In this document: positions 9,826-62,932 of the stretch, piece by piece | How the letters are laid out: each line of letters begins with the position of its first letter | Numbering within the stretch: position 1 is the stretch's first letter | From: Gemmobacter aquatilis | GTDB taxonomy: Bacteria; Pseudomonadota; Alphaproteobacteria; Rhodobacterales; Rhodobacteraceae | DNA: 64,000 bases | Reading direction: 5' to 3' | Assembly: GCF_900110025.1 (NCBI RefSeq) | Contig: NZ_FOCE01000001.1 | Location: forward strand, 1 to 64,000 | Position numbers and translations under genes: made by a program | Notes under the pieces: model-generated | Database searches by the model: none | Told to the model about the DNA's origin: nothing | Seen by the model: only the letters and a program-made list of their open reading frames with translations

Positions 9826-9866
9826 TCGAAAGTTTGCACCTGCAGCATGATGACGGAGTGCCTGAT

Positions 9867-10646: not shown

Positions 10647-10704
10647 CGGCATCCGCCGGTGCCCCAGCCTGCCATGCGGGCGGCGCGGCAAGCCGCCATG
10701 ACGG

Positions 10705-47314: not shown

Positions 47315-47393
47315 CCGATCACTGTCAATCATTATCAATCATAAATTACATTTCTGCGCTGCAGCATGATTGAATTTGATTGTTTATGATTGA
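47315..47393. promoter_or_regulatory. Phased operator array between rhaR and rhaD
   Basis: Half-site ATGATTGA occurs at 47366, 47376 (TTGATTGT) and 47386, each 10 bp apart; its complement TCAATCAT occurs at 47325 and 47335, with a weak third (CCGATCAC) at 47315, also 10 bp apart. The two groups are mirror images about position 47354. One-helical-turn spacing puts all half-sites of a group on one DNA face, suiting cooperative binding by the DeoR-type RhaR. Confidence 0.75.
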
Positions 47394-47445
47394 CTCACGC
47401 CCCCATTCTGGCACATTTGCCACAGACGTAGAGGGAGGACATGGC

Positions 47446-49542
47446 GTGACCCACACCGACACCGGGCTGATAAACCTTTGGGATTCAACGAAGGCGAAGG
47501 CCATGAGCGAGGCTGAAAAGCTGCTCTACCGCTCCAACCTCCTTGGGTCGGACAAGCGAATCACCAACTATGGCGGCGGCAACACCAGCGCCAAGGTGAT
47601 GGAGAAAGACCCGCTTTCCGGCGATCTGGTCGAGGTGATGTGGGTCAAAGGGTCGGGCGGTGATGTCGGCTCCATCAAGATGGACGGGTTTGCTACGCTG
47701 TACATGGACAAGCTGCGCGCGCTGAAAGGCGTCTACAAGGGCGTGCACATGGAAGATGAGATGGTGGGCTATCTGCCGCACTGCACGTTCAACCTGAACC
47801 CGCGCGCCGCCAGCATCGACACACCGCTTCACGCCTATGTGCCGAAAAAACACGTCGATCACATGCACCCCGATGCCATCATCGCCATCGCCGCCGCGAA
47901 GAATTCCCGCGCGCTGACGGCGAAGATTTTCGGCGATGACATCGGCTGGCTGCCGTGGAAGCGCCCCGGCTATGAATTGGGTCTGTGGCTGGAAGATTTC
48001 TGCCTGAAGAACCCTAAGGCCAAAGGCGTGGTGCTGGAATCGCACGGGCTCTTCACCTGGGATGACGATGCCGAGGAATGCTACAAGCTGACCCTCGCCA
48101 CCATCCAGAAGGCGATGGATTGGTTCGCGGCGGAAACCGCTGGCAAGACCATCTTCGGCGGTGCCGTGACGACAAGCCTGGCCCCCGATGCCCGCCGCGC
48201 CGTGGCCGCCAGACTGATGCCCGCCATTCGCGGCATGATCTCCAGGGATCACGCCATGGTCGGCCATTTTGATGACCAGCCCGCCGTGCTGGAATTCGTC
48301 AATTCCGCCAGGTTGAAGCCCCTGGCGGCACTCGGCACCTCCTGCCCCGACCATTTCCTGCGCACCAAAATCTGCCCGCTGGTGGTGGATTTCAATCCCG
48401 CCACCCCGGATGTTGACGCCACCCTTGCCGCGCTGGCCGGCCAGATCGAAGACTACCGGCAGGGCTATGCTGCCTATTACGACCGCTGCAAACACGAAAA
48501 TTCCCCACCCCTGCGCGACCCCAATGCGGTCGTCTATCTGGTGCCCGGCGTGGGGATGCTGACCTTCGCCAAAGACAAGGCCACCGCACGGATTTCGGGC
48601 GAGTTCTACGTCAACGCCATCAACGTCATGCGCGGGGCGGATACCGTCAGCGAATACTGCGGCCTGCCGGAACAAGAGGCTTTCGACATCGAATACTGGC
48701 TGCTGGAAGAGGCAAAGCTGCAGCGCATGCCCAAGCCCAAATCGCTGGCGGGGCGCGTGGCGCTGGTCACGGGCGGCGCGGGGGGCATCGGGTCGGCTAC
48801 GGCGGAACGGATGCTGAAAGAAGGCGCTTGCGTGGTTCTGGCCGATATCGACGGCAAGGCAGCGGCCGATGTGGCGGCAGGCATGGCCAAGGTGTTTGGC
48901 CGCGACGTGGTGCGTTCGCTTCAGATGAATGTCACCGACGAGGCGCAGGTGATCGCCGCCTATGCCGAAACCGCCGTTGAATTTGGCGGCGTGGACATTC
49001 TGGTGTCCAACGCCGGCATCGCAAGCTCCGCCCCGGTGGAAGAAACCAGCCTTGCGCTATGGAACAAGAACATGGACATCCTGTCCACCGGCTATTTCCT
49101 GGTCAGCCGCGAGGCGTTCAAGGTCTTGCGCGCGCAAGGCATAGGCGGCTCTGTCATTTTCGTCGCCTCCAAGAACGGCCTCGCCGCGAGCCCCAACGCC
49201 TCTGCCTACTGCACCGCCAAGGCCGCCGAGATTCATCTGGCCCGCTGCCTTGCACTGGAAGGCGCGGAGGCGGGGATCCGGGTGAATGTGGTCAACCCGG
49301 ATGCCGTGCTGCGCGGTTCGAGAATCTGGTCCGGCGAATGGCTGGATCAGCGTGCGAGCACCTACAAAACCGACAAGGAAGGGCTGGAAGAGATGTATCG
49401 CAACCGCTCCATGCTCAAACGCTCGGTCTATCCTGAGGATATTGCCGAAGGGGTCTATTTTTTCGCGTCTGATCTTTCGGCCAAATCGACGGGCAATATC
49501 CTGAACGTCGATGCCGGAAACGTGCAGGCCTTCACCCGCTGA
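47446..49542 (+). CDS. rhaD: Bifunctional rhamnulose-phosphate aldolase / lactaldehyde dehydrogenase
   Basis: 698 residues from a GTG at 47446, which has GGAGG 7 nt upstream; the ATG at 47441 is out of frame and stops after two codons. N-terminal class II aldolase domain (residues ~15-420; NYGGGNTSAKV, Zn ligands in HVDHMHPDA, ESHGLFTWDDDAEE) and C-terminal short-chain dehydrogenase domain (ALVTGGAGGIGSATAE ~441; SNAGIASS; YCTAK ~588). It splits L-rhamnulose 1-phosphate to DHAP and L-lactaldehyde and oxidises the latter, as in Rhizobium RhaD. Confidence 0.92.
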   Translation: MTHTDTGLINLWDSTKAKAMSEAEKLLYRSNLLGSDKRITNYGGGNTSAKVMEKDPLSGDLVEVMWVKGSGGDVGSIKMDGFATLYMDKLRALKGVYKGVHMEDEMVGYLPHCTFNLNPRAASIDTPLHAYVPKKHVDHMHPDAIIAIAAAKNSRALTAKIFGDDIGWLPWKRPGYELGLWLEDFCLKNPKAKGVVLESHGLFTWDDDAEECYKLTLATIQKAMDWFAAETAGKTIFGGAVTTSLAPDARRAVAARLMPAIRGMISRDHAMVGHFDDQPAVLEFVNSARLKPLAALGTSCPDHFLRTKICPLVVDFNPATPDVDATLAALAGQIEDYRQGYAAYYDRCKHENSPPLRDPNAVVYLVPGVGMLTFAKDKATARISGEFYVNAINVMRGADTVSEYCGLPEQEAFDIEYWLLEEAKLQRMPKPKSLAGRVALVTGGAGGIGSATAERMLKEGACVVLADIDGKAAADVAAGMAKVFGRDVVRSLQMNVTDEAQVIAAYAETAVEFGGVDILVSNAGIASSAPVEETSLALWNKNMDILSTGYFLVSREAFKVLRAQGIGGSVIFVASKNGLAASPNASAYCTAKAAEIHLARCLALEGAEAGIRVNVVNPDAVLRGSRIWSGEWLDQRASTYKTDKEGLEEMYRNRSMLKRSVYPEDIAEGVYFFASDLSAKSTGNILNVDAGNVQAFTR

Positions 49543-49554
49543 TCGGAACCCGCC

Positions 49555-50700
49555 ATGCGCCTTGCCCAGTGCCACAACTTCCACGACTTTCGCACATTGG
49601 CCCGGCGCAGGCTTCCGGGGCCGATCTTCAACTATATCGATGGCGGGGCGGATGACGAATCCACCCTGCGCCGCAACAGCGCCAGCTTTGAGGCCGTTGA
49701 TCTGGTGCCGCACGTCTTGCGCGGTGTGAAAGAGGTTGACCTTTCCACCACGATCATGGGCCAGAAACTGGCCCTGCCGTTCTACCTGTCGCCCACCGCC
49801 CTGCAACGGCTGTTCCACCCTCAGGGCGAACGCGCTGTCGCGGCGGCGGCGGCGAAATACGGCACGATGTTCGGGGTCTCGTCGCTGGGGACGGTTGCGC
49901 TGGAAGAACTCCGCGCCGCCCACAAGACCCCGCAGGTCTATCAGTTCTATTTCCACAAGGACCGCGGCCTGAACCGTGCCATGATGCAGCGCGCCAAGGC
50001 GGCCGGCGTCGAGGTGATGATGCTGACCGTGGACAGCATCACCGGCGGCAATCGCGAGCGCGACAAGCGCAGCGGGTTTTCCATCCCCTTCCGCCTGACA
50101 CTGGGCGGCATGGCACAATTTGCGCTGAAACCGATGTGGGGGATCAACTATGTCACCCACCCGAAATTCAGCCTGCCGCAACTGGATGCGCATGTGAAGA
50201 TGGGCGGCGGCACCATGTCGATCGGGCGCTATTTCACCGAAATGCTGGACCCGACGATGACCTGGGACGATCTGGCGGAAATGGTGCAGGACTGGGGCGG
50301 CAAGTTCTGTCTCAAAGGCATCATCCATCCCGACGATGCCACCCGGGCCGCCGATGCGGGCTGCGATGCGGTGATCCTGTCCAACCATGGCGGGCGTCAA
50401 CTGGACGGCTCGCGCAGCCCCTTCGACGGGTTGGCCGAAGTGGTCGATACCGTGGGGGACAGGCTCGATGTCATCATGGACAGCGGCATTCAGCGCGGCA
50501 CCCATATCGTGAAAGCCCTGTCGCTGGGGGCCAAGGCCGTGGGTCTGGGCCGCGCCTATCTTTTTCCGCTGGCCGCCGCAGGCCAGGCCGGGGTGGAGCG
50601 AATGCTGGGACTGATGAAAGACGAAGTTGAACGTGACATGCGCCTGATGGGGGCGGCCCGCGTGGCTGACCTGTCGCGCAACAATCTGCGGTTCCGCTGA
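49555..50700 (+). CDS. lldD: FMN-dependent L-lactate dehydrogenase (alpha-hydroxy-acid dehydrogenase)
   Basis: 381 residues. FMN barrel with GPIFNYIDGGADDESTLRRN, FYLSPTALQRLFHPQGE, CDAVILSNHGGRQLDGSRSPFDGL (catalytic His and Arg) and DSGIQRGTHIVKALSLGAKAVGLGRAYLF. Oxidises L-lactate to pyruvate, electrons to quinone. Placed between rhaD and rhaI, 12 bp after rhaD, it would use the L-lactate formed from lactaldehyde by RhaD, joining rhamnose breakdown to respiration. Confidence 0.93.
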   Translation: MRLAQCHNFHDFRTLARRRLPGPIFNYIDGGADDESTLRRNSASFEAVDLVPHVLRGVKEVDLSTTIMGQKLALPFYLSPTALQRLFHPQGERAVAAAAAKYGTMFGVSSLGTVALEELRAAHKTPQVYQFYFHKDRGLNRAMMQRAKAAGVEVMMLTVDSITGGNRERDKRSGFSIPFRLTLGGMAQFALKPMWGINYVTHPKFSLPQLDAHVKMGGGTMSIGRYFTEMLDPTMTWDDLAEMVQDWGGKFCLKGIIHPDDATRAADAGCDAVILSNHGGRQLDGSRSPFDGLAEVVDTVGDRLDVIMDSGIQRGTHIVKALSLGAKAVGLGRAYLFPLAAAGQAGVERMLGLMKDEVERDMRLMGAARVADLSRNNLRFR

Positions 50701-50720
50701 ACCGTGCCAAGGGGGCTTGA

Positions 50721-51965
50721 ATGACAACCGCTTATACCGCCGCAAGACAAGCCTTTACTGACTGGGGGGTCGATACCGAACAAAGCCTTGCTGCACTGGC
50801 AGGCATCCCGATCTCGGTGCATTGCTGGCAGGGCGATGACGTGAAAGGCTTCGAACAGAAATCGGGCAGCGCGGGCGGCGGCATTCAGGCCACCGGCAAC
50901 CACCCCGGTCGCGCCCGCACCCCTGATGAGCTGCGCGCCGATCTGGAGTTCGCCTATTCCCGGATTCCCGGCCGTCATCGGCTGAACCTGCACGCGTTCT
51001 ACCTCGATACCGATGAAACCCCCGACCGAGACGCCATCGAATACCATCATTTCGCCCCTTGGGTCGATTGGGCGAAAGACCAGAAGATCGGGCTGGATTT
51101 CAACCCCACATTCTTTGCCCATGCCAAGGCGGACGACAACCTGACGCTGTCCCACCCCGACAAGGGCATCCGCGATTTCTGGATCGAACACGGCAAACGC
51201 AGCCGCGAGATCGCGGCACGGATCGGTGCCGAACTGGGTAGCGCGGCAGTGAACAACATCTGGGTTCCCGATGGGTCAAAGGATGTTCCGGTGGACCGCA
51301 TTTCAGCCCGCAGACGGCTGGAAAGCTCACTCGATGCCATTCTGGCGCAACCGCATGACACGGCCCATCTTCTGGATGCGGTGGAATCGAAGCTGTTCGG
51401 TATCGGCGTGGAATCGATGACTGTCGGCAGCCATGAGTTTTACCTCGGCTATGCCATCCGCAAGAACACGCTGCTGTGCCTCGACATGGGCCATTTCCAC
51501 CCCACCGAAAACATTGCCGACAAGCTGTCATCCGTGGCTCTGTCGGTGGATCGTCTCCTTCTCCACGTCTCGCGCCCGGTGCGCTGGGACAGCGACCATG
51601 TGATCCTTCTGAATGACGACATCCTCGCCATGGCGCAGGAACTTGTCTTTGCCGACCTTCTGGGCCGCACCCATATCGGCCTTGATTTCTTCGACGCCAC
51701 CATCAGCCGCACCGCCGCCTGGGTCATCGGAACCCGCAACATGCAAAAGGCGCTGCTGCGCGCGCTGCTTCTGCCCCGGGACAGCCTGAAAGCCGCTGAA
51801 ACGGCGCTGGATTACACCCGCCGCCTGATCCTGACCGAGGAGCTGAAAGATCTGCCCTTCGCCGCCGTCTGGGCCGAGTTCTGCGCGCGCCACAACATGC
51901 CGACCGGGCGGTCCTTGCTGACGGATCTGACCGCCTACCAAGCCCGTGTTGCAGCGCGGGGCTGA
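50721..51965 (+). CDS. rhaI: L-rhamnose isomerase of the rhizobial type
   Basis: 414 residues. Xylose-isomerase-like TIM barrel: ALAGIPISVHCWQGDDVKGFEQ, RIPGRHRLNLHAFYLD, GLDFNPTFFAHAKADDNLTLSHPDKGIRDFWIEHG, SHEFYLGYAIRKNTLLCLDMGHFHPTENIADK and HVSRPVRWDSDHV carry the metal ligands. Converts L-rhamnose to L-rhamnulose. Third and last gene of the plus-strand unit, followed by a terminator. Confidence 0.95.
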   Translation: MTTAYTAARQAFTDWGVDTEQSLAALAGIPISVHCWQGDDVKGFEQKSGSAGGGIQATGNHPGRARTPDELRADLEFAYSRIPGRHRLNLHAFYLDTDETPDRDAIEYHHFAPWVDWAKDQKIGLDFNPTFFAHAKADDNLTLSHPDKGIRDFWIEHGKRSREIAARIGAELGSAAVNNIWVPDGSKDVPVDRISARRRLESSLDAILAQPHDTAHLLDAVESKLFGIGVESMTVGSHEFYLGYAIRKNTLLCLDMGHFHPTENIADKLSSVALSVDRLLLHVSRPVRWDSDHVILLNDDILAMAQELVFADLLGRTHIGLDFFDATISRTAAWVIGTRNMQKALLRALLLPRDSLKAAETALDYTRRLILTEELKDLPFAAVWAEFCARHNMPTGRSLLTDLTAYQARVAARG

Positions 51966-52036: not shown

Positions 52037-53038
52037 TTATGTCAGCACGCTTGCCAGACTGACCGGGGTGCCCGATCGGGCCGAAAGCGTGGCCGCTTCA
52101 GCCATGGCAAGGGCTGCGATCCCATCGGCCAGCGTCACCGGCAGAACGGTGCCGCCGGTGACGGCCACCACAAAGGCTGCCCATTCTGCGGCATAGGCGG
52201 GCATGTAGCGTTCCAGGAAGAAATAGGTGGGTTTCGCGCCGGTCACGCCTGCGGTCGTGGATTTGACCACGGTGTTTTCCAGCATGTTCTGCGCCTGCAA
52301 CAGCCCTTCGGACCCCAACAACTCAACCCGCTGGTCATAGCCATAGACCGCACGACGGCTGTTCTTGATGACCGCAATCCGACCATCGGCATAGGTCAGC
52401 GTGACCACGGCCGTATCCACGTCGCCTGCCGCGCCAATCGCCGGATCGACGATGGACGTTCCCACGGCCGACATGGTGACGGGGGACGCCCCCATGATGA
52501 AATTGGCCATGTCGAAATCATGGATCATCATGTCGCGGAACAGCCCGCCCGAGACCTTGATATAGGCCACTGGCGGGGGCGCCGGGTCGAACGAGGTGAT
52601 CGACAGCAGTTCGGCCTTGCCGATCTCGCCCTTGTCCAGCGCGGCTTTCAGCGCGGCGAAATTCGGATCAAAGCGGCGGTTGAAGCCGATCATCACCGGT
52701 TTGCCCGTGCTGGCAACGGCGGTCTGGCAAGACTGCGCCCGCGCCAGCGACAGATCCACCGGCTTTTCGCACAGCACCGCCTTGCCCGCTGCGGTGGCGC
52801 GCTCGATCAGGTCGGAATGGGTGTCGGTCGAGGTGGCGATCAGCACGGCGTCAATCGACGCATCGGCCAGAATGGCATCGGTGGTGCGGGCCTCGGCCCC
52901 GTATTGCGCGGCCAGTTTGGCGGCGGCGTCAGCGTTGATATCCGACACCGCGACAAGACGACTGCCGGGGTTGGTGGAAATGGCGGTGGCATGCACGCCC
53001 GCAATGCGGCCTGCGCCAAGAAGAGCTACGTTCAACAT
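52037..53038 (-). CDS. Inositol 2-dehydrogenase-like oxidoreductase (GFO/IDH/MOCA family)
   Basis: 333 residues. Rossmann motif LLGAGRIAGVHA; EKPV at residues 91-94 with catalytic Lys92; GGLFRDMMIHDFDMANF gives Asp169 and His173, the K-D-H triad of inositol dehydrogenases. Whole-length pattern follows rhizobial IdhA/IolG (GFNRRFDPNF, YIKVSGG, SRRAVYGYDQR). Oxidises an inositol-like ring with NAD+. Last gene of the cluster that also has hydroxylase, Rieske and isomerase genes; MocA of rhizopine catabolism belongs to this family. Confidence 0.87.
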   Translation of the reverse strand: MLNVALLGAGRIAGVHATAISTNPGSRLVAVSDINADAAAKLAAQYGAEARTTDAILADASIDAVLIATSTDTHSDLIERATAAGKAVLCEKPVDLSLARAQSCQTAVASTGKPVMIGFNRRFDPNFAALKAALDKGEIGKAELLSITSFDPAPPPVAYIKVSGGLFRDMMIHDFDMANFIMGASPVTMSAVGTSIVDPAIGAAGDVDTAVVTLTYADGRIAVIKNSRRAVYGYDQRVELLGSEGLLQAQNMLENTVVKSTTAGVTGAKPTYFFLERYMPAYAAEWAAFVVAVTGGTVLPVTLADGIAALAMAEAATLSARSGTPVSLASVLT

Positions 53039-53054
53039 GTGATGTCCTTGTCAG

Positions 53055-53864
53055 TTACAGGCCCAGATCGGCCTTGAAAGCGGCGAATTCAGCGTCTGCC
53101 ATGGCGACGTTGTGCTGCGGTTCGGGATAGCTGCCTGCGTTCACGTCGGCGATGAATTCGCGGAAGGCGGCGATGCGTTCGGTTTGCAGCCGGGCGTATT
53201 CGGCGGCGAAGGTGCGGTAGGTTTTGGCATGACGCGGCTTGTGGCCATCGGTGCAGCCCAGCACGTCTTCGGCGAACAGATATTGCGCGTCGGCTCCGGG
53301 GCCCGCGCCCATGCCCAGCATGATCATCGGGGTGTTTTGCGAGATCAGCGCGCCCAGACGGTCCGGCACCACCTCCAGCTCGGCCCCAAAGCAGCCGATG
53401 GCTTCCAGCTGTTTCACATGGTCCCAGACCGACCGTGCCTCGGCAGCGGTTTTGCCCACCGCGCGCCAGCCGGTAAAGGTGATGTAGCTGGGGATCAGGC
53501 CGACATGGGCGACCACGGGCATGTGGTTGTCGCACAGCGCCTTCTGGATATCCAGACTGGCGGCGCAGTAGAAGCAATCGCCCCCCATCGCGGTGAATCT
53601 GAACGCCGCGCGGAGGTAGTCTTCCGCCGTCGCCAGCCCACCATAGGGGCCGAAGGGCAGACCGACCTGCACGAAACAGCGGCCTGCCGCCTCGCGCATC
53701 TCAGGGGTGAAGAAGCGGCTTTCAATCGACAGCATGTGGATGCCCGCCGCATCGGCCGCGGCGGCTTCCTCCAGCGTGGTGACATAGAGCATGCTGATTT
53801 TCTGCCCCCGCGCTTTCATGGCCCGCATGTCGTGGACCGTGGGGCGATTGGCTTTGTGGACCAT
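53055..53864 (-). CDS. PanB-like (ketopantoate hydroxymethyltransferase family) protein with altered active site
   Basis: 269 residues from MVHKANRPTVHDMRAMKARG. The PanB/isocitrate-lyase-like barrel is clear: AHVGLIP at 119-125, ELEVVPDRLG with Glu164 at the PanB general-base position, GMGAGPGADAQ, DVLGCTDGHKPRHAK and the C-terminal VNAGSYPEPQHN. The Mg-binding residues of PanB (Asp, Asp, Glu) are replaced by Glu48, Gly68 and a small residue, so true ketopantoate synthesis is unlikely. It lies between the isomerase-like and inositol-dehydrogenase-like genes; role in a C-C bond step of the pathway is a guess. Confidence 0.8.
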   Translation of the reverse strand: MVHKANRPTVHDMRAMKARGQKISMLYVTTLEEAAAADAAGIHMLSIESRFFTPEMREAAGRCFVQVGLPFGPYGGLATAEDYLRAAFRFTAMGGDCFYCAASLDIQKALCDNHMPVVAHVGLIPSYITFTGWRAVGKTAAEARSVWDHVKQLEAIGCFGAELEVVPDRLGALISQNTPMIMLGMGAGPGADAQYLFAEDVLGCTDGHKPRHAKTYRTFAAEYARLQTERIAAFREFIADVNAGSYPEPQHNVAMADAEFAAFKADLGL

Positions 53865-53868
53865 GATG

Positions 53869-54642
53869 TTACACCGTGAATGCGTTGCGGAAGGCTTCGA
53901 GGGCAGCCTCTTCATTACCCCTGGCAAAGCCTTCAAGGCCGACAGGGCCGGAATAGCCCATGGTTTTCAAATCCTTGGCGATGGCGTGATAGTTGATCTC
54001 GCCCGTGCCCGGCTCGCAGCGGCCTGGGTTGTCGGCCACCTGCACCTCGCCGATCCATGGCAGGCATTTCTCGCACCAGCGGATCAGATCGCCCTCGCCG
54101 ATCTGGGTGTGGTAGAGATCAAGGTTGATGCGAAGCTCGGGGCGATTGACCGAGGACACCAGCGCCAGCACATCGGCCGTTGACCCGAAGGGGCAGCCGG
54201 GATGATCCAGCAGGTTCAGGTTTTCCAGCGTGAAAACCACGCCCAGTTCCGCCCCCAGATCGCAGATGCGGTTCAGCGTGTCGCGGGCCTTCAGCCACAT
54301 TGCGCCCGTCACCACCTGCGTCTGCCAGATCGGGATGCCGCCATCACCCAGCCCCGTGCCGTGCAGGTTCAGCCGGTGCACGCCGAGCCGTTTGCCCACC
54401 TGCGCGGTTTCACGCGCCGAGGCCAGCAGCAGGTCAGCGCCCGCATCATCGGCAAGACGACCCTCGAGATAGCCATTCATGATGGTGAAAGTGGCCCCCG
54501 TGGCTTCCAGTTTGGCCAGATCCCAAGCGGGCCAGTTCCACAGGCCAACACCAAAGCCCATCTCTTTCAGACGCGACGCGCGCCACTCGATCGGGCGGTC
54601 GCGCCACAGCATTTCGGCGCAGGCGGCAAGGGGGAATGTCAT
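53869..54642 (-). CDS. Hydroxypyruvate-isomerase/sugar-isomerase-like TIM barrel (MocC-like context)
   Basis: 257 residues. AP-endonuclease-2-type barrel with the Hyi metal set: Glu140 (TLENLN), Asp175 with His178 (NLDLYHTQ), Gln201 (VQVADNPGR), Glu237 (GLEGFA), plus EPGTGEINY. Hyi interconverts hydroxypyruvate and tartronate semialdehyde; related inositol-pathway enzymes (IolE, IolI, MocC) use the same fold. One base separates it from the Rieske gene. Confidence 0.83.
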   Translation of the reverse strand: MTFPLAACAEMLWRDRPIEWRASRLKEMGFGVGLWNWPAWDLAKLEATGATFTIMNGYLEGRLADDAGADLLLASARETAQVGKRLGVHRLNLHGTGLGDGGIPIWQTQVVTGAMWLKARDTLNRICDLGAELGVVFTLENLNLLDHPGCPFGSTADVLALVSSVNRPELRINLDLYHTQIGEGDLIRWCEKCLPWIGEVQVADNPGRCEPGTGEINYHAIAKDLKTMGYSGPVGLEGFARGNEEAALEAFRNAFTV

Positions 54643-54643
54643 G

Positions 54644-54955
54644 TCAGATCTCGATATACACAGCGCCGTCTTCGACTTTGACGGGGAAGGTTTTCAGGTT
54701 GATGCAGGCGGGCGCGCGTTTGGCCTCGCCGGTGCGGTAGCAGAAGGTGGCGCTGTGCTTGGGGCATTCGACCGTGCCCTCCATCACCAGCCCGTCGGCG
54801 AGATGCACCTTTTCGTGGCTGCAAATGCCGTCCATGGCGAAGAACTCGTCTTCTTCGCTGCGAATGATGATGAAGGTCTGCGCGCCGTGATCAAAGCGCA
54901 TCAGATCGTCAAGGTCGATGTCGGTGGTGGCGCAGGCGCGTATCCAGTTGGGCAT
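54644..54955 (-). CDS. Rieske [2Fe-2S] ferredoxin, MocE-like
   Basis: 103 residues from MPNWIRACATTDIDLDDL (an ATG at 54967 would add MDLI; neither has a clear ribosome site). Rieske cluster ligands Cys45-x-His47 and Cys64-x-x-His67. It closely follows the pattern of MocE and other small oxygenase ferredoxins (DGICSHEKVHLADGLV, ECPKHSATF, TGEAKRAPACINLKTF). It probably passes electrons to the di-iron hydroxylase at 58025. No ferredoxin reductase is found in the window. Confidence 0.9.
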   Translation of the reverse strand: MPNWIRACATTDIDLDDLMRFDHGAQTFIIIRSEEDEFFAMDGICSHEKVHLADGLVMEGTVECPKHSATFCYRTGEAKRAPACINLKTFPVKVEDGAVYIEI

Positions 54956-54980
54956 GATCAGATCCATCGGTTTTTGGGTG

Positions 54981-55042
54981 CCCCGGCCCGGTGAGGATCG
55001 GGCCGGGGCGATGATCGGTGTCCGGGGGAAACTGGACACCGA
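54981..55042. other. Two tandem hairpins between the importer and enzyme halves of the cluster
   Basis: First: CCCCGGCCCG-GTGAGGAT-CGGGCCGGGG (54981-55008), 10-bp perfect stem. Second: TCGGTGTCC-N10-GGACACCGA (55015-55042), 9-bp perfect stem. Both lie in the 95-bp gap between the ATPase stop and the Rieske start. No T-run, so RNA stabilisation or attenuation is more likely than full termination. Confidence 0.65.
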
Positions 55043-55050
55043 CGGGGAGA

Positions 55051-55869
55051 CTATTGCGCCGGGGGCGGCGGGTGGCCGCCATGGCTGTTCATGTAGCTTT
55101 CAATCTCGGCCTCGAGGCTGGCCATCGAGGCCCCGCCTGCCATCAGATCGGTGATTTCTTCGCGGGTCTTTTCGCCCTTGTGGAAGTCGGCGGCGACCGC
55201 GCCGCGGATCAGCACCGCGAAGTGATCGCCCACCGCCATGGCGTGCATCACCTGATGGGTGATGAAGATCACCGCGAGGCCCCGCCGTTTCGCCTCGTTC
55301 ACGATGCGCAGAACATGGGTCGCCTGCTTGACACCAAGCGCGGCGGTGGGCTCATCCAGGATCAGTACCCGCGCGCCGAAATGCACGGCGCGGGCGATGG
55401 CCAGCGATTGACGTTCGCCGCCTGACAGACCGCCGACCAGACGGTCGCCGTCGTCGATCCGGGTGATGCCGAAATCGCGCACGGCCTTGACGGCAATGTC
55501 ATTGGCGCGGTTGCGGTCATAGACCTTGAACGGCCCGAAGCCCCTGGTCGGCTCTACCCCCACGAAAAAGCTGCGACCGATGGACATCAGGGGGAAGGTG
55601 CCACCGAACTGGTGCACCGTGGCGATGCCCTTTTCAGATGCGGCGCGCGGGGTCGGCAGGCTGACGCTTGTGCCATCCATCTCGATGGTGCCGGAGCTGG
55701 GTTGGTGCACGCCCGACATGATCTTGATCAGCGTGGATTTTCCGGCGCCATTGTCGCCCAGCAGGCACAGAACCTCGCCCGCGCGGACCTCCAGCGTGAT
55801 GTCATGCAGCACGTCGATGGGGCCGAAGGATTTGTTGACGCCACGCAGCGCAAGGATTGGTGCGGCCAT
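55051..55869 (-). CDS. Ribose-type ABC transporter ATP-binding protein (single domain)
   Basis: 272 residues from MAAPILALRGVNKSFGP. Walker [14 protein letters not shown], signature LSGGERQSLAIARAV, Walker [14 protein letters not shown]-loop FITHQVMHA. It has only one ATPase domain, unlike RhaT, so it works as a homodimer. ATG overlaps the permease stop. Confidence 0.92.
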   Translation of the reverse strand: MAAPILALRGVNKSFGPIDVLHDITLEVRAGEVLCLLGDNGAGKSTLIKIMSGVHQPSSGTIEMDGTSVSLPTPRAASEKGIATVHQFGGTFPLMSIGRSFFVGVEPTRGFGPFKVYDRNRANDIAVKAVRDFGITRIDDGDRLVGGLSGGERQSLAIARAVHFGARVLILDEPTAALGVKQATHVLRIVNEAKRRGLAVIFITHQVMHAMAVGDHFAVLIRGAVAADFHKGEKTREEITDLMAGGASMASLEAEIESYMNSHGGHPPPPAQ

Positions 55870-56876
55870 CACTTGCCCCCTTTCTTCGGCGCATAGGACA
55901 GCGCCATTTTGCGGAAGGTGTTGTTCATCAAGACTGCGCCCAACAGCAGCACGCCGATGATGAGCGACGACCAGTTGCGGTCAAAATCGGTGTAGTAGAT
56001 GCCTTGCGTCACGATGGCGAAGGTGATGGTGCCGAAGAAGATCCCGATCACCGACCCGAAGCCCCCCGTCAGCAGCACGCCCCCCACCACCACCGAGATG
56101 ATCGCGTTGAAGATGAACGACTGCCCGCCCGCCACCTGGGCCGAGTTGTAGAGGATCGCCTGACACATGCCGACAAAGGCGGCGGAGGTGGAGGACAGCA
56201 CGAACAGCACCATGGTCAGCCGCTCGGTCGGGATGCCGGCGTTGCGGGCCGAAACCTTGTCGCCGCCCATGGCGAAAACCCAGTTCCCGAAGGGCGACAG
56301 GTGGACAAAAAACACATACAGCGCCGTCAGCCCCAGCCACCACAGCACCATGACCTGCATCTGCCCGCCCAGCACGAAATCGCCGAACATCACCTTGGCC
56401 ACGCCTTCGGTTTTCAGGGCGACCGAGGTGGATTTGGTGATCAGCACAGTCAGGCCCAGCACGACGCCCTGAACGGCAAACAGGGTGCCCAGCGTCACGA
56501 TCAGAGACGGCACGGCGGTGCGGATCACCAGAAAGCCATTCACCAGACCGACGATCACGCCGAAAGACAGCGCCGCAGCAATGCCCATCCAGATCGGCAA
56601 CCCGTAATGACCCGAGATCACGGAAACGGTCATCGCGCCAAAGGGCACCATGGCCCCGACCGAGATGTCCAGCTCGCCCGCGATCATCAACAGGCCCAGC
56701 GGAATGGCGATGACGCCAAGGTTTGCGGCAACGTTCAGCCAGCTTGCCATGCCGGAGGGTTTCAGGAAGGTGACTCCGCCAAAGATGGCAAAGAAGATGA
56801 GGACGGCGAAAAGGCCAAGCGCGGCCCCCGCTTCGGGGCGGCGCGCAAGGGCGCCAAAGGAAAAGGTTCTGGACAT
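55869..56876 (-). CDS. Ribose-type ABC transporter permease
   Basis: 335 residues from MSRTFSFGALARRPEAGAAL. Family motif LLMIAGELDISVGAMVPFGAM, then NGFLVIRTAVPSLIVTLGTLFAVQGVVLGL and VVGGVLLTGGFGSVIGIFFGTITF. A single permease gene, so probably a homodimeric channel. Confidence 0.92.
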   Translation of the reverse strand: MSRTFSFGALARRPEAGAALGLFAVLIFFAIFGGVTFLKPSGMASWLNVAANLGVIAIPLGLLMIAGELDISVGAMVPFGAMTVSVISGHYGLPIWMGIAAALSFGVIVGLVNGFLVIRTAVPSLIVTLGTLFAVQGVVLGLTVLITKSTSVALKTEGVAKVMFGDFVLGGQMQVMVLWWLGLTALYVFFVHLSPFGNWVFAMGGDKVSARNAGIPTERLTMVLFVLSSTSAAFVGMCQAILYNSAQVAGGQSFIFNAIISVVVGGVLLTGGFGSVIGIFFGTITFAIVTQGIYYTDFDRNWSSLIIGVLLLGAVLMNNTFRKMALSYAPKKGGK

Positions 56877-56916
56877 GATGCCCCCGGAATGGCTGCGAAA
56901 AACGGGCGAGGTGTGG

Positions 56917-56947
56917 GGTCCGGCCAACCCGTGGCGGGGGCCGGACC
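56917..56947. other. Hairpin between binding protein and permease genes
   Basis: GGTCCGGCC-N13-GGCCGGACC, 9-bp perfect stem in the 80-bp gap. Same arrangement as after the other binding-protein genes of this window. Confidence 0.6.
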
Positions 56948-56956
56948 AGTGTCAGA

Positions 56957-57928
56957 TCAACGCGCGCCTTTGGCCACCCCGGCCAGCGTGGCGTCGATGT
57001 TGGACGCATCCACAATCCCCGGGCCGGTCAACACCGGGAACACCGGCAGGTCGGTGCCAAAGTCGATATGCGAGGCCAACAGGCTGACCGCCAGGAAGGA
57101 TTGCAGATAGGGCTGCTGGTCGATGGCAAAGGCCTGGGTGCCGCCCTTGATACGGTCAAGACCCGCCTGGTTCATGTCGAACGAGCCCAGCAGGGTCTTG
57201 CCCGCCTTGCCCGCCTGATCCACCGCGATGGCCGCGCTGTCGGCGTCGCCCGCCGAGATGGTGATGACGCCGTCGATGCTTTCATCTTTCAGCAGTTCCG
57301 CCTTGATCGCCTCGGCCACGGCGGTGGCATCGCCAAAGCTGGTGGTCGGCAGCGGCAGTTGCGCACCCTTGCCGCCTGCGGTGGTCACGCCATCTATCAC
57401 GCCCTTGCAGCGGGCCTCGGTGTTGGATGCGCCCGGCAGGGTGTTGATGCAGAGCACATTCTTCTGCCCGCCCTTGCCGAAATACTCGCCCCCGGCCAGA
57501 CCGGCCACATATTCATCAGAGCCGACATAGTTGATCGCGCCCAGTTCGGTCGCCTTGTCAGCGCCGCCCGCATTCATCAGGATCACCTTGATCCCTGCGG
57601 CGATCGCATCCTTGATTGCGGGATCTTCCGCCTCGGGTACCCAGTTCGGGATGACCAGACCATCAACCTCCATCGAGATCGCGGTGCGGATCAGTTGCAC
57701 GACATCGGGGGCGAAGTTGTCGTAATTCACCAGACGCAGGTAGTTCACGCTGCCGCCATTGGCGACGACGCCGGGGGTGGCATCGTCGATGCCCTTCTTG
57801 ATGATGTTCCAGAAGGCATCGTCATTCGACCCGCCGATCACCGCGATATCGGCCGACATCGCCGCCGAAGCGCTGCTGATCAGGGCCGTGGTTGCCAATG
57901 CCTTGGCGAGGGTTTTCATATAGCTCAT
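56957..57928 (-). CDS. Ribose-type periplasmic binding protein (MocB-like context)
   Basis: 323 residues with signal peptide (MSYMKTLAKALATTALISSASAAMSA, before DIAVIGG). Periplasmic-binding-protein-4/ribose type: DDAFWNIIKKGIDDATP, DGLVIPNWVPEAEDPAIKDAIAAGIKVILMNAG, GSFDMNQAGLDRIKGGTQAFAIDQQPYLQ. Ligand expected to be an inositol, amino-inositol or sugar derivative. MocB of rhizopine catabolism is the same kind of protein. Confidence 0.9.
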   Translation of the reverse strand: MSYMKTLAKALATTALISSASAAMSADIAVIGGSNDDAFWNIIKKGIDDATPGVVANGGSVNYLRLVNYDNFAPDVVQLIRTAISMEVDGLVIPNWVPEAEDPAIKDAIAAGIKVILMNAGGADKATELGAINYVGSDEYVAGLAGGEYFGKGGQKNVLCINTLPGASNTEARCKGVIDGVTTAGGKGAQLPLPTTSFGDATAVAEAIKAELLKDESIDGVITISAGDADSAAIAVDQAGKAGKTLLGSFDMNQAGLDRIKGGTQAFAIDQQPYLQSFLAVSLLASHIDFGTDLPVFPVLTGPGIVDASNIDATLAGVAKGAR

Positions 57929-57947
57929 GTGTCGTCTCCTCCCTTGT

Positions 57948-58015
57948 CCCGCCGTTGGTGGCGGGTTTTCAATCTTTGGGTTGACCTGCTGACCCGGCCT
58001 CCCTGCCGGGTCAGC
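57948..58015. other. Two hairpins between hydroxylase and binding-protein genes
   Basis: CCCGCC-GTTGGT-GGCGGG (57948-57965) and GCTGACCCGGC-CTCCCT-GCCGGGTCAGC (57988-58015, 11-bp perfect stem) fill the 96-bp gap. They separate the hydroxylase message from the importer message and may set different levels of the two. Confidence 0.6.
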
Positions 58016-58024
58016 GGGGATGGA

Positions 58025-59041
58025 TCATCCGCGCGTCGCCTTGGCGTTCATCCGCGCTTTCTTTTTCTCGAACCGGGCCTGCATCTGCGCATCGCCCGCT
58101 TTCGATCCGTCGTGGAAATAGCCAAACCACTTGTCCAAAGGGATCAGCCCATCGCCGCCATAGTTCACTTCGAAATACTTGTGGTGCAGGTAATGGGCGT
58201 AGGCGTGGCTGTCCAAAGTGCTGTCTTCGGTGATCTCCAGCTTGTCGAACCCGATATGGCCATTCACCGCGCCAAACCCCGCCAGATGCAGTTGGAACAT
58301 TGCAATGATCGGGTTCGAGGGGATCACAAGGTGCCACAGCGCAACGGCGTGATACAGGAAGCCTTCGACCGGGTGCATCGACAGCGAAGACCACGGGCTG
58401 GGGTTGACCGAGTTGTGGTGCACCGAATGCACCCATTTATAAAGCAACGGCGTGTGGATCAGGCGGTGAATGCAGAAGAAATGCACCTCATGGATCGCCG
58501 GGGCCAACAGGGTCAGCGTGACCAGCCACAGCCAGTTGTCAGACCAGGTCAACCATGGAACGGCGCCCGTGGCATAGGCGTGCAGAAAGATCACCTGCAC
58601 CAGCGTCCACAGCGGGATCGAGAGGAAGAAGCTGCGCAGGAAGTTGTCGATGTTCTGCGATTTGAACCAGAACACATCCGAAGGCTGTTCGGCCGGGAAT
58701 TTCGCGTTGTACTTGAACCGCGTGCCCTGCTTTTTCTTTACATACCAGAACAGCTCCACCCCGCCGTAAAACACGAAGATCGCGGCAGCGTTCACGGCGT
58801 AAAGCCAGAGCGCCCAGCCAAAGGACAGGGTTTTCATCACCTCGACATCGGGCACGACATAGAACCACCAGATCAGCGTGGTGGCCATGTGGAAGGCATT
58901 CCACGGGAACAGGTATTCCGGGATCCAGGCCAGGACTTTCGGCAGGCTGAACGGGCGCTTCCAGAACGGTGGCACGTCCAGAACCGCAGACGGGGCCCAG
59001 TCGCCACGTTTGTTCCGGGTGCCGAATTTCAGATCGTCCAT
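58025..59041 (-). CDS. Membrane fatty-acid-hydroxylase/sterol-desaturase-family enzyme (His-cluster di-iron)
   Basis: 338 residues. Several membrane spans (about 50-70, 76-100, 138-160, 168-190, 230-260). His clusters: His192-x3-His196, His205-x2-His208-His209, and His279...His283-x2-His286-His287, with His184/187 nearby: the HX3H, HX2HH, HX2HH pattern of membrane di-iron oxygenases. It is the first gene after the LacI-controlled promoter, upstream of a sugar-type importer and a MocE-like ferredoxin. In rhizopine catabolism MocD is an oxygenase working with MocE and MocF. Likely inserts oxygen into, or O-demethylates, the imported compound. Confidence 0.87.
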   Translation of the reverse strand: MDDLKFGTRNKRGDWAPSAVLDVPPFWKRPFSLPKVLAWIPEYLFPWNAFHMATTLIWWFYVVPDVEVMKTLSFGWALWLYAVNAAAIFVFYGGVELFWYVKKKQGTRFKYNAKFPAEQPSDVFWFKSQNIDNFLRSFFLSIPLWTLVQVIFLHAYATGAVPWLTWSDNWLWLVTLTLLAPAIHEVHFFCIHRLIHTPLLYKWVHSVHHNSVNPSPWSSLSMHPVEGFLYHAVALWHLVIPSNPIIAMFQLHLAGFGAVNGHIGFDKLEITEDSTLDSHAYAHYLHHKYFEVNYGGDGLIPLDKWFGYFHDGSKAGDAQMQARFEKKKARMNAKATRG

Positions 59042-59317
59042 CTTTCACCTCCGTCTATTAACCGACTGGTTTGCAGAGAAAATACGCGGTCACGCCGTGC
59101 CCGTTACGCACGGTGCGCGGTCTGGCTTTGCAGCCCGGTGCTTTGGTAAATTTCCCCTGCTGCGGCGTCTGTCGGGGGTGGCCCTGCAAGGCGCCGCATG
59201 GATGATGGTTAGACTTTCAATTCCACGACCGATCAAGAATGGAATTTTTATTTGCTTAATTTCGTCTCAAATGTATCATCTGGTATCACAAATGATATGA
59301 TTTGAGATGTGCTGCAG
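59042..59317. promoter_or_regulatory. Divergent promoter of the hydroxylase cluster and lacI-type gene
   Basis: 276 bp without a gene. The half nearest the regulator is AT-rich (59205-59310) and holds a large dyad: TCTCAAAT at 59265 pairs with ATTTGAGA at 59300, and inside it TATCAT at 59274 pairs with ATGATA at 59292. The centre reads TGGTATCACA. A candidate operator for the adjoining LacI protein, overlapping its own start region. Confidence 0.65.
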
Positions 59318-60346
59318 ATGACCCGCCCCACGATCCGTGATCTGGCCAATGCGGCCGCCGTTTCCGTTGCCACCGTGAACCGGGTTTTGGCAGGCGCAGC
59401 CAATGTGCGGGCACCGACCCGGCTTCTGGTGCAGGAAGCGGCAGAGAGAATCGGCTTCTATGGCTTGGGAACCATCCAGTCCCGCGTGGCCGCCAGTCGC
59501 CCGAAATACCGCTTTGGCGTCCTGCTGTTACAGCCGCACCGCCCGTTCTACCAGAATATTGCCGCCGCCCTGCGCCGCGCCGTAGCCGAGACGATGGGCG
59601 CCGAGATCGACCTGCGGATCGAGTTTCTGGAAGATCTGGCGCCACAAAATACCGCAGCACGCGCCCTGAACCTGGCCGAGCATTGTCAGGCCATTTGCAT
59701 CGTCGCCGCCGTTCACCCGACAGTCACCGAGGCCGTGGCGCACATACAGGCGCGCGGTGTGCAGGTCTTTGCTCTTGTGGGGCAGTTGTCGGCCAGCGGG
59801 CAGGTGCCCTATATCGGTCTGGACAACTGGAAGGTCGGGCGCACCGCCGCTTGGACCTTTGCGAATGTCTGCAAGGGCCCCGGCAAGATCGGCATCCTCA
59901 TGGGCAACCCGCGCTACCGCAATCAGGAAATGAACGAGGCGGGGTTCCGCTCTTATTTCCGGGAACATGCGGCGGGCTTTACCTTGCTGGAGCCGGTCTC
60001 GACCTTCGAGGCCGCGGCCATTGCGCAGGACATGACGGAAAGGCTGCTGACCGATCATCCTGACCTTGCCGGGCTGTATGTCTCGGGCGGGGGGATAAGC
60101 GGGGCCTTGGCGGCGCTGCGGGGGCTGGGGCGGGCGGGGCAGATCGTGACGGTGGGTTACGATCTGTTCGACGTGACCCGGATGGCACTTCTGGACGGGA
60201 CAATGACCCTTGTCATTTCACACGCGCTGGACCGGCTGGCCCGCGAGGCGCTGGACGTGATGATCAAAGCCTGTGCCGCGCCCGCATCCGGCGCGAACCT
60301 GACCCGCATTGTGCCGTTCGAGCTTTACACACGCGAGAACCTTTAG
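59318..60346 (+). CDS. LacI-family transcriptional regulator
   Basis: 342 residues from MTRPTIRDLANAAAVSV (a GTG at 59309 would add three). LacI HTH with hinge helix (TIRDLANAAAVSVATVNRVLAGAANVRAPTRLLVQEAAERIGF), then a ribose-binding-like sensor (FGVLLLQPHRPFYQNIAAAL; YIGLDNWKVGRTAAW; GLYVSGGGISGALAAL). Divergent from the hydroxylase gene; probably represses the cluster until its sugar-like substrate binds. Confidence 0.9.
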   Translation: MTRPTIRDLANAAAVSVATVNRVLAGAANVRAPTRLLVQEAAERIGFYGLGTIQSRVAASRPKYRFGVLLLQPHRPFYQNIAAALRRAVAETMGAEIDLRIEFLEDLAPQNTAARALNLAEHCQAICIVAAVHPTVTEAVAHIQARGVQVFALVGQLSASGQVPYIGLDNWKVGRTAAWTFANVCKGPGKIGILMGNPRYRNQEMNEAGFRSYFREHAAGFTLLEPVSTFEAAAIAQDMTERLLTDHPDLAGLYVSGGGISGALAALRGLGRAGQIVTVGYDLFDVTRMALLDGTMTLVISHALDRLAREALDVMIKACAAPASGANLTRIVPFELYTRENL

Positions 60347-61055: not shown

Positions 61056-62126
61056 TTACAGCAGCAGGCGTTTGTGCGTTGTCGGGAATGACCGCAGCAT
61101 GTCTGGCGTGATGTCGTGGCGGAAGGGCTGGGGCGCCAAGGGGATGGTCGCCCCCGTGCGAGCCGCCTCTTCGATGGCCAGCAGCACCCGCATATCCGAC
61201 TGCCCCTCATGCCCGTCCGCCTCGGGCGGCACGCCCTGCAGGATGCAATCCGAGAAATAGGCGATCTGGCCGGCAAAATGATCGACATGCGGGAAGGCGC
61301 GCTCGGTCACGCCCCCGGCCTTTCGGATCTGAAACGTCATGGCGGATTCAAAGCGAAAGGCTGGATCGACCACGATCTCGCCCGCTGTGCCAAGGATGCG
61401 GATGGTTTCCGACATCTCCGACCCGAACGAGCAGAAGAATTGCGCCAGCCGCTCGCCGGGAAACCGCAAGGTGACGGCAAGGCTGGCATCAATTTCGGTA
61501 AAGCGGGCATCCTGCGGCGGGCGGCTGGCCATGGCCTGCACGCTGATCGGTTCGGCGCCGAACACATGCCGCGCGGCATTGAGGCAATAGACCCCGACAT
61601 CCTGCAACGGCCCGCCCCAATGGCCTGCTTGCAAGCGATGATTGCCCGGCTGCGCCTGAAACCCGAAGGTCGATGCGAAATAGACGGGCGCCCCGATCTG
61701 GCCCGAGCGCACGGTTTCCAGCAGGGCATGGGTGCCCGGCTCGTTGTGCAGGCGGTAGGCGGTCATCAGAAAGGCACCGCTTTCCTGCGCGGCGGCGATC
61801 ATCGCGTCGCCTTCGGCCAGCGTGGTGGCCAGCGGCTTTTCCACCATCACATGTTTGCCCGCCCGCAGCGCGCGAATGGCGTAATCGGCATGCAGAGAAT
61901 TGGGCAGCGCGATATAAACCGCGTCAATCCGATTGCTGGCGATCAGCGCATCGTAATCGGCATAGCCCAGAACTTCGGGCACGTCGTGAAACGCGGCCAG
62001 ACGGCGCGCACCCTCGGGGCTGCCCGAAACGATGGCCTGCATCCGGGAATTTCCGGTTGCGGCCACCGCGGGCATGAAGGCCTCTTGCGAGATCCAGCCC
62101 GCGCCGATGACGGCATAGCGTATCAT
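61056..62126 (-). CDS. GFO/IDH/MOCA-family oxidoreductase (glucose-fructose-oxidoreductase type)
   Basis: 356 residues. Rossmann AVIGAGWISQEAFMPA, EKPL with Lys97, and GGPLQDVGVYCLNAARH, giving Asp176 and Tyr180: the Tyr replaces the catalytic His of inositol dehydrogenases, as in glucose-fructose oxidoreductase and D-xylose dehydrogenase. NAD(P)-dependent sugar oxidation. It follows a XylH-type importer in the same direction. Confidence 0.87.
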   Translation of the reverse strand: MIRYAVIGAGWISQEAFMPAVAATGNSRMQAIVSGSPEGARRLAAFHDVPEVLGYADYDALIASNRIDAVYIALPNSLHADYAIRALRAGKHVMVEKPLATTLAEGDAMIAAAQESGAFLMTAYRLHNEPGTHALLETVRSGQIGAPVYFASTFGFQAQPGNHRLQAGHWGGPLQDVGVYCLNAARHVFGAEPISVQAMASRPPQDARFTEIDASLAVTLRFPGERLAQFFCSFGSEMSETIRILGTAGEIVVDPAFRFESAMTFQIRKAGGVTERAFPHVDHFAGQIAYFSDCILQGVPPEADGHEGQSDMRVLLAIEEAARTGATIPLAPQPFRHDITPDMLRSFPTTHKRLLL

Positions 62127-62170
62127 GGAAAATCTCCTGAAAAGGGAAGAAGCGCGCCTTGCGGCGCGGT

Positions 62171-62932
62171 TCAGGCCGCCAGATGGGCGGGTTTCTTGCC
62201 AAGGATGATCATGCCGAGGATATCATCATCCGTCACCTCGTCCACCTTCACCGTGCCGACAAGCTGGCCGTTTTTCATCACGCTGGCCCGGTCGCACAGT
62301 TTCATCACGCTGTGGATGTCATGTTCGATCAGGAAGATGCCCAGACCCTGCGCCTTCAACTCCTGAATAAGCTCGGCCACCATCTGGGTTTCATGCGGGC
62401 CAAGCGCGGCGGTGGGTTCATCCATGATCAGGATCTTGGCGTTGAAATAGACCGCCCGCGCAATGGCCACCGATTGCCGCTGCCCGCCCGACAGGGCCGA
62501 AACCGGCACGTTGAACTTGCGGAAATTGGGGTTCAGGCGGCCCATGATCTTGCGGGTCTCCGCCTCCATCCGCGCATCATCGACCAGCCCGCGCGACAGG
62601 ATCTCGCGCCCCAGGAACAGGTTGGAGGCGGCGTCGAGGTTATCGGCCAGCGCCAGCGTCTGATAGATCGTCTCGATGTTCTGGCTGCGGGCATCGCGGG
62701 GGTTTGCGATCTCGACCGGCTGGCCATTGATGAGGATCTGCCCGGCATCGGCCTGATAGGCGCCTGACAGGCATTTGATCAGCGTCGATTTGCCCGCGCC
62801 GTTATGGCCCAGCAGGCCCACCACTTCGCCGGGGTAAAGGTCGATCGACACATGGTCCACCGCCTTGATGCCGCCGAACGAGATGGAAATGTCGCGCATT
62901 TCGACCAGAGGGGTTTGTCCGTTCCGGGTCAT
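62171..62932 (-). CDS. Sugar ABC transporter ATP-binding protein (single domain)
   Basis: 253 residues. Walker [14 protein letters not shown], signature [15 protein letters not shown], Walker [14 protein letters not shown]-loop LIEHDIHSV. FrcA/single-domain ribose type. The start overlaps the permease stop (ATGA). Confidence 0.92.

Follow-up and report, generated by a model that had tools for sequence, protein, structure and literature searches.

Among the described systems closest to the locus considered here are the mocDEF complex of rhizopine (3-O-methyl-scyllo-inosamine) catabolism and the purU-mabO-folD operon of the nicotine plasmid pAO1. As stated in excerpts of PMC10107442 and PMC3538637, the mocDEF genes belong to rhizopine catabolism, and FixV-type LacI genes adjoin them on plasmids of Rhizobium leguminosarum and Sinorhizobium meliloti; mocDEF-like genes are also reported in Pseudomonas syringae (PMC5132102, in excerpt). 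Here we describe a cluster of nine genes in a window of 64,000 nucleotides of Gemmobacter aquatilis (contig NZ_FOCE01000001.1, hereafter C10:1-64000), with all positions given in window numbering. In our reading it is under LacI control and would serve the breakdown of an O-methylated inositol such as pinitol, ononitol, bornesitol or sequoyitol; a Rieske ferredoxin would feed an oxidative demethylation and a PanB-like protein would handle the one-carbon (C1) unit, and we put the probability of this reading at about 60%.

All nine genes are open frames, and their family matches confirm the LacI-controlled set of the preliminary description, with its hydroxylase, MocE-like Rieske protein, barrel, PanB-like protein and IolG. 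Eight of the genes share the minus strand; between 59041 and 52037, in the direction of transcription, they are those for hydroxylase, binding protein, permease, ATPase, Rieske ferredoxin, TIM barrel, PanB-like protein and IolG. The membrane di-iron hydroxylase (58025..59041, minus strand), the proposed O-demethylating oxygenase, matches PF04116 ('sterol desaturase family') with a Pfam E of 2.9e-17, and the eight histidines of its HxxxH / HxxHH / HxxHH motifs are kept without exception in the 11 relatives aligned. The Rieske [2Fe-2S] ferredoxin (54644..54955, minus strand) passes the cut-off of the MocE family, TIGR02377 (154.3 versus 136.15), and the inositol 2-dehydrogenase IolG (52037..53038, minus strand) that of the TIGR04380 equivalog (421.7 bits versus 355). 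Between them lies the gene of the PanB-like protein (53055..53864, minus strand), the proposed C1-handling partner, which matches PF02548 and is without the PanB metal-ligand residues; its start (~53864) and that of the Rieske protein (~54955) are set from the annotated cluster of Gemmobacter fulvus.

To follow the conservation of this gene set, 84,980 species were scanned, each represented by a single genome, which gave at least 594 pattern matches, 537 of them confirmed; the best 80 loci were analysed, and since these are the most similar ones the counts describe a close group and not the whole family. They come from Rhodobacteraceae, Rhizobium, Mesorhizobium, Ensifer, Shinella, Labrys, Methylocapsa, Rhodoferax and others, and a lacI relative (at least 40% identity) is near the hydroxylase in 78 of the 80. 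Gene content was counted on the 65 loci in which the sequence extends 7 kb or more past the hydroxylase on its downstream side. A Rieske gene is present in 58 and a PanB-like gene in 58, with both in 56, completing the triplet that the preliminary description proposed to look for; the TIM barrel is found in 56, the binding protein in 61, the permease and the ATPase in 59 each, IolG in 41 and lacI in 63, and a ferredoxin reductase lies within 9.5 kb in 17, as does purU, likewise in 17. The order hyd-sbp-perm-atp-Rieske-TIM-panBlike-idh is kept in rhizobia and Rhodobacteraceae, while two Comamonadaceae-type records (L123 and L124) have variant arrangements, L124 being without the PanB-like gene. 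A second variant, in 6 of the 80 loci, has an extra D-chiro-type IolG relative, under the equivalog cut-off in the one copy scanned, and another TIM barrel, and would suit chiro-inositol ethers such as pinitol. Among 292 genomes of the order, with relatives called at E <= 1e-30, the hydroxylase has relatives in 101, of which only 15 copies in 14 genomes reach at least 44% identity; the remaining listed relatives share 28–39%. We also note two further loci: pSymA of S. meliloti 1021 (1159791-1161127, L127) has a LacI relative (29%), a hydroxylase (59%) and a Rieske ferredoxin, with no PanB-like match within 19 kb, and in L036 (~9837-11060) a hydroxylase frame ends in a segment resembling the PanB-like C-terminus, as if intervening genes had been deleted, with an IS630 transposase nearby.

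Searching 72,556 plasmids with the Rieske protein as query leads to loci on R. leguminosarum pRL4b6 and in S. meliloti RCAM1115, in both of which a LacI gene diverges from genes for a fatty-acid desaturase (PF00487), a MocE-type ferredoxin, a flavin adenine dinucleotide (FAD) reductase and a PanB-like protein. The name MocD-type, as used here for such loci, follows how their genes are annotated (fatty acid desaturase, MocE) and the printed adjacency of FixV-type LacI genes and mocDEF. The preliminary description had regarded the PanB-like protein as an addition relative to the moc loci, which is not borne out, since these two loci carry it too; the words 'hydroxymethyltransferase' and 'panB' are absent from the main texts of PMC10107442 and PMC3538637. 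Its view of the oxygenase as a member of the sterol-desaturase family distinct from MocD stands, the hydroxylase (PF04116) and the MocD-type desaturase (PF00487) having no significant similarity, with a best BLAST segment of 30 residues (E = 0.037). As for mocF, said to be absent, none is found among the cluster genes, but a relative of the ferredoxin reductase is encoded elsewhere in the host genome (C20:108555-109757, 43% identity), and the 17 loci above have one nearby. Two further observations concern MocD-type genes. The host genome contains a second cluster (L164, G000:C14:119000-137000) with LacI, a MocD-type desaturase, MocE, a PanB-like gene, a TIM barrel, importer genes and an IolG-like gene, and in alphaproteobacterial genomes of ~1.4 Mb (L168, L169) a MocD-type desaturase gene adjoins a PanB-like gene.

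A tree of PanB-like proteins with 47 rows, of which the program flags L183, L238 and L229 as long and unsure, needs four changes of oxygenase type, all forced by starred branches. The clearest case is a MocD-type locus, L211, which is not among the long rows; it is nested in the hydroxylase group with support of 100/99 and retains the D-chiro-variant TIM barrel and a reductase. Because of these four changes and the position of L211, the oxygenases seem to be interchangeable beside the ferredoxin and PanB-like genes, and two unrelated enzymes appear to have replaced each other next to a stable pair. The best case for the hydroxylase filling the role of MocD is this swapping, which also suggests that two unrelated di-iron oxygenases can serve interchangeably in that role. 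That the PanB-like partner is common to both kinds of oxygenase is a new general point.

The PanB-like protein scores below both NCBIfam PanB cut-offs (111 versus 272, and 83.7 versus 207.55 for TIGR00222), while the true PanB of the host scores 320.7 bits. Its predicted structure has a predicted local distance difference test (pLDDT) value of 84.1, and its best fold match is PanB (Foldseek template modelling score, TM, about 0.77, 27% identity). Residues were counted in 66 PanB-like copies aligned with the true PanB of the host: 63 from hydroxylase loci, a second copy in L051, and those of L165 and L166, with no hydroxylase in the stretch seen. In all 66 the residue at position 45 is never D, D84 is replaced by G, K112 by Y and E114 by A or S, and H136 and E181 are kept; nine MocD-type copies are alike, except for two with D at 45, one with D at 84, and one G and one P at 114. 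The numbering is that of Escherichia coli, in which we take D45, D84 and E114 to be the metal-binding residues. Part of a PanB loop is also missing, and the protein looks like a PanB that has lost the metal and keto-acid site and kept the rest. Of 30 genomes with the PanB-like protein, 23, including the host, also have a true PanB (299–322 bits), and 7 have no PanB over the cut-off.

The genomic setting of the PanB-like gene is also distinct from that of panB. At E <= 1e-50 it occurs at 34 places in 31 of the 292 genomes of the order, and the window's own copy, the 34th, was excluded from scoring. Among the other 33 a MocE-type gene is near 28, a MocD-type desaturase near 24 and a PF04116 hydroxylase near 6; at least one of the three is near all 33, versus 0 of 20 true panB genes (Fisher P = 5e-15, kinship ignored). 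This tally was read off the rows of a neighbourhood table covering ~6 kb to either side (L209 and L210 have 16 kb on one of the two; L237 is a 6.5 kb contig); the hydroxylase of L239 lies just beyond the stretch, at G210:C1:141151. The control comprises 20 of the 23 over-cut-off panB places, one of them a 7.5 kb stretch (L256), from a set of 30 genomes that does not include G140. The linkage covers matches at E <= 1e-50; PanB relatives of lower score, at least three in number (one in G266 and two in G156), fall outside it.

Several observations connect the cluster to inositol catabolism. The iolD gene of the host is at C10:72796-74637, ~8.8 kb past the end of the window, and is adjoined by a further IolG and iolE, both over their cut-offs, forming an inositol island at ~C10:71.6-75.6 kb. 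Elsewhere, the cluster has iolC and iolD as neighbours in L039, and iolC and iolB in L038; in G210 a run comprises iolB, purU, idh, PanB-like, TIM, Rieske, TIM, IolG-like, importer genes and hydroxylase, and in L166 importer, Rieske, TIM, PanB-like, idh, purU, iolC, iolD and iolB form a single run, with neither a hydroxylase nor a MocD-type gene found within its 19 kb. An iolD match (E <= 4.9e-232, above the 715-bit cut-off by the printed scores) is present in 14 of the 14 genomes whose hydroxylase reaches 44% identity or more, versus 175 of 292 overall (hypergeometric P = 0.0006, with the threshold chosen afterwards and kinship ignored). Together with IolG in the cluster, purU or a reductase near some loci and the exchange of oxygenases, the nearby island lends indirect support to the earlier proposal that an oxidative O-demethylation would feed inositol catabolism. 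We note that before the island there are a second Gfo/Idh/MocA gene and a ribose-type permease and ATPase (61056-63969 and L136, contig positions 64001-84000).

The relationship to rhizopine uptake was followed in 20 genomes searched for the rhizopine substrate-binding protein (SBP), with a sole over-cut-off match in L199 (M. loti DSM 2626); no certified moc locus carrying a PanB-like gene was seen among them. Three loci with sub-cut-off rhizopine-type proteins, L200-L202, contain the sbp-perm-atp-TIM-idh set and have no hydroxylase, Rieske or PanB-like matches, as would fit an add-on module.

From gene content, conservation, family membership, the nearby inositol island and oxygenase swapping, all of which are observed directly, we infer a substrate, a demethylation chemistry and a role for the PanB-like protein. 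In the proposed pathway, the ATP-binding cassette (ABC) importer would bring the cyclitol into the cell (step 1), and an NADH-ferredoxin reductase, encoded in trans here, would reduce the MocE-family Rieske ferredoxin, which would in turn feed the membrane di-iron hydroxylase (step 2). The hydroxylase would oxidise the O-CH3 group to O-CH2OH, which would leave as a C1 unit (step 3), and the PanB-like barrel may help this unit onto tetrahydrofolate, from which FolD and PurU would yield formate and free folate (step 4). The freed inositol would be oxidised by IolG, with the TIM barrel making adjustments if needed, and passed to the iol pathway encoded just downstream (step 5). Together with the lost metal site, purU near 17 of the 65 loci and its precedent on pAO1, where it is in an operon with a demethylating oxidase (PMC3891541, in excerpt), make transfer of this unit to folate the simplest conjecture for the PanB-like protein, though no more than a conjecture. 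We further propose, tentatively and at rather less than even odds, that it is a new tetrahydrofolate-linked hydroxymethyl transferase, derived from PanB by loss of the metal site, that delivers the hydroxymethyl group formed by Rieske-fed di-iron O-demethylases to folate with no free formaldehyde, and that it is a constant and hitherto unnoticed partner of demethylases of both the MocD and the PF04116 type, the rhizopine demethylase perhaps among them.

Other readings of the locus differ in the substrate or in the part assigned to single proteins. The substrate could be another modified inositol, either an amino or N-methyl compound of the rhizopine kind or a C-methyl compound such as laminitol, from which the PanB-like protein would release the hydroxymethyl group by a retro-aldol reaction. 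PanB chemistry is a reversible transfer of hydroxymethyl to a carbon, and the NCBIfam model nearest to the binding protein is that of the rhizopine SBP (NF052284), at 154 bits far under the cut-off of 420. There is no aminotransferase among the nine cluster genes, the PanB metal site is gone, and the wide occurrence in rhizobia suits the O-methyl inositols of legumes better, in which these compounds are abundant (pinitol has reportedly been the subject of a paper on Lotus nodules); we consider this substrate unlikely. A methylated aldose or glycoside, with the IolG-like and TIM-barrel enzymes acting on a keto sugar, is a little harder to credit, for although Gfo/Idh/MocA and PF01261 proteins have many sugars among their substrates, IolG is over its cut-off as an inositol 2-dehydrogenase, and iol genes adjoin several copies of the cluster and lie near the window's copy.

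The remaining two readings each detach one protein from the pathway, and we regard both as very improbable. The hydroxylase could act on lipids, sterols or hopanoids and sit beside a sugar importer by chance, as its Pfam name, the many relatives at 28–39% in the order and the lack of a Rieske gene near ~15 such relatives viewed in short loci might suggest; this hardly accounts for the binding-protein gene in 61 and the Rieske gene in 58 of 65 loci, or for its exchange with the MocD-type desaturase. Similarly, the PanB-like protein could make the pantothenate precursor and be a hitch-hiker in the cluster, a view favoured by PF02548 membership, the PanB fold and the 7 of 30 genomes in which no PanB exceeds the cut-off. 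The true PanB in the other 23, the host included, the absence of D45, D84, K112 and E114 from 66 of 66 copies, and the linkage to demethylase genes (33 of 33 against 0 of 20) all speak against it.

The reading as an O-methyl inositol module has to be set against a number of observations that weigh on the other side. It is built from genes and sequence comparison, with substrate and activity predicted from them, and relatives of IolG could act on other polyols. The hydroxylase fold is poorly modelled (pLDDT 66.5) and gives no Foldseek match at E <= 0.001, the TIM barrel is under every NCBIfam equivalog cut-off listed, and the binding protein does not qualify as a rhizopine SBP by the curated cut-off (154 versus 420). 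The window has neither a local reductase nor purU; both are present elsewhere in the host genome, as in many unrelated bacteria, and these copies are weak evidence. The joint conservation of hydroxylase and Rieske genes, on which the preliminary description had depended, is evident in the close group (58 of 65) and looser in the wider one, where, of the 15 copies in the order that reach 44% identity or more, 10 have a MocE-type Rieske gene nearby, and 5 of the 65 loci have neither a Rieske nor a PanB-like gene. The L199 locus, with its over-cut-off rhizopine SBP, has no MocD, MocE or PanB-like match within 20 kb. Among 27 places in a sample of the class, 4 were left out of the neighbourhood reading; of 20 PanB-like loci, 8 have a MocE, MocD-type or hydroxylase neighbour and 11, a remoter group, have none, and near the 12 remoter PanB relatives in these 11 loci (L172-L182; identity to the queries 31–43%) neither a MocE- nor a MocD-type match is seen. 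L165, at a contig end, has no MocE, MocD-type or hydroxylase match in its 9.5 kb.

The other genes of the cluster are those of uptake, isomerisation and control. Downstream of the hydroxylase are the periplasmic substrate-binding protein (56957..57928, minus strand; PF13407, best PDB sequence match 4ru1), the ribose-type ABC permease (55869..56876, minus strand; PF02653, start taken as in the annotated G. fulvus copy) and the single-domain ABC ATPase of the importer (55051..55869, minus strand; PF00005, limits as in G. fulvus). The importer genes of the preliminary description are thus present, with the correction that the ribose-type system consists of one permease and an ATPase of ~273 aa, whose match to the RbsA-type models of ~500 aa is confined to their first half. 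The xylose-isomerase-like TIM barrel (53869..54642, minus strand; PF01261) is a possible inosose isomerase or epimerase. The LacI-family regulator (59309..60346, plus strand; PF00356 and PF13407) is divergent from the operon, and the promoter region between them (59042..59308) contains GATA/TATC half-sites near 59267-59297 that we tentatively regard as a candidate operator; in 84 such intergenic regions TGATA-N6-TATCA is present in 14 and TGATA-N7-TATCA in 17, the half-sites being enriched and not universal. The same cluster is found on plasmid p3 of G. fulvus, with its nine proteins 85–100% identical and seven of them at 95% or more, and there (L128) it is bracketed by an IS110 gene and an IS5 gene, with type IV secretion genes in the neighbourhood. 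Since p3 is typed as mobilizable and insertion sequence (IS) genes flank the cluster, it may travel between strains. Beyond IolG in the window, rhamnose-type catabolic genes occupy 47380-51965, among them one for an L-rhamnose isomerase that passes its curated cut-off; the two frames before it look like those of a bifunctional aldolase/dehydrogenase and a lactate-dehydrogenase-type protein.

Legumes supply pinitol to rhizobia, and the module is a specific candidate, present in many rhizobia, for removal of the methyl ether from plant cyclitols. Among the matches listed in the open-access PubMed Central (PMC) literature, no paper describes the set of hydroxylase, Rieske and PanB-like genes, and none assigns a gene to bacterial methyl-ether removal from plant cyclitols such as pinitol. 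A sterol-desaturase/fatty-acid-hydroxylase gene is induced in Mimosa symbionts according to an excerpt of PMC5789663, with no orthology to the cluster hydroxylase implied. The PanB-like protein is a proposed new partner of MocD/MocE-type demethylases that is currently annotated as a vitamin-pathway enzyme, as seen from the label 3-methyl-2-oxobutanoate hydroxymethyltransferase on its genes in the annotated G. fulvus, R. leguminosarum and S. meliloti loci; if it does handle a C1 unit, many genes with this label would be misnamed (the protein occurs in 31 of 292 genomes of one order).

The resemblances to known systems are partial in each case. The PanB-like protein shares with the ketopantoate hydroxymethyltransferase PanB the fold, H136 and E181, and differs in the loss of the metal-ligand and lysine positions, in the missing part of a loop and in its genomic setting. 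With the iol operons the cluster has in common the IolG equivalog and iol genes close by, but iol operons are not known to have an oxygenase or Rieske ferredoxin. The purU-mabO-folD operon of pAO1 passes the C1 unit of a demethylation through tetrahydrofolate and PurU, as is proposed here for the cluster, although it does so with an amine oxidase and an N-methyl substrate, and the excerpts of PMC3891541 on this operon do not mention a PanB-like protein. The mocDEF complex is similar in its MocE-family ferredoxin and membrane histidine-cluster oxygenase, in the link to inositol genes and the reductase near some relatives of the cluster, and in the divergent LacI and the PanB-like gene common to the cluster and the MocD-type loci examined. 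It differs in that the oxygenase of the cluster is PF04116 and not FA_desaturase PF00487, and in that the cluster has its own ribose-type importer and IolG in the operon, with no local reductase in the window. By its oxygenase the cluster is not a member of the mocDEF family, and we propose that it is a variant of the mocDEF principle, with ferredoxin-fed di-iron O-demethylation ahead of inositol catabolism.

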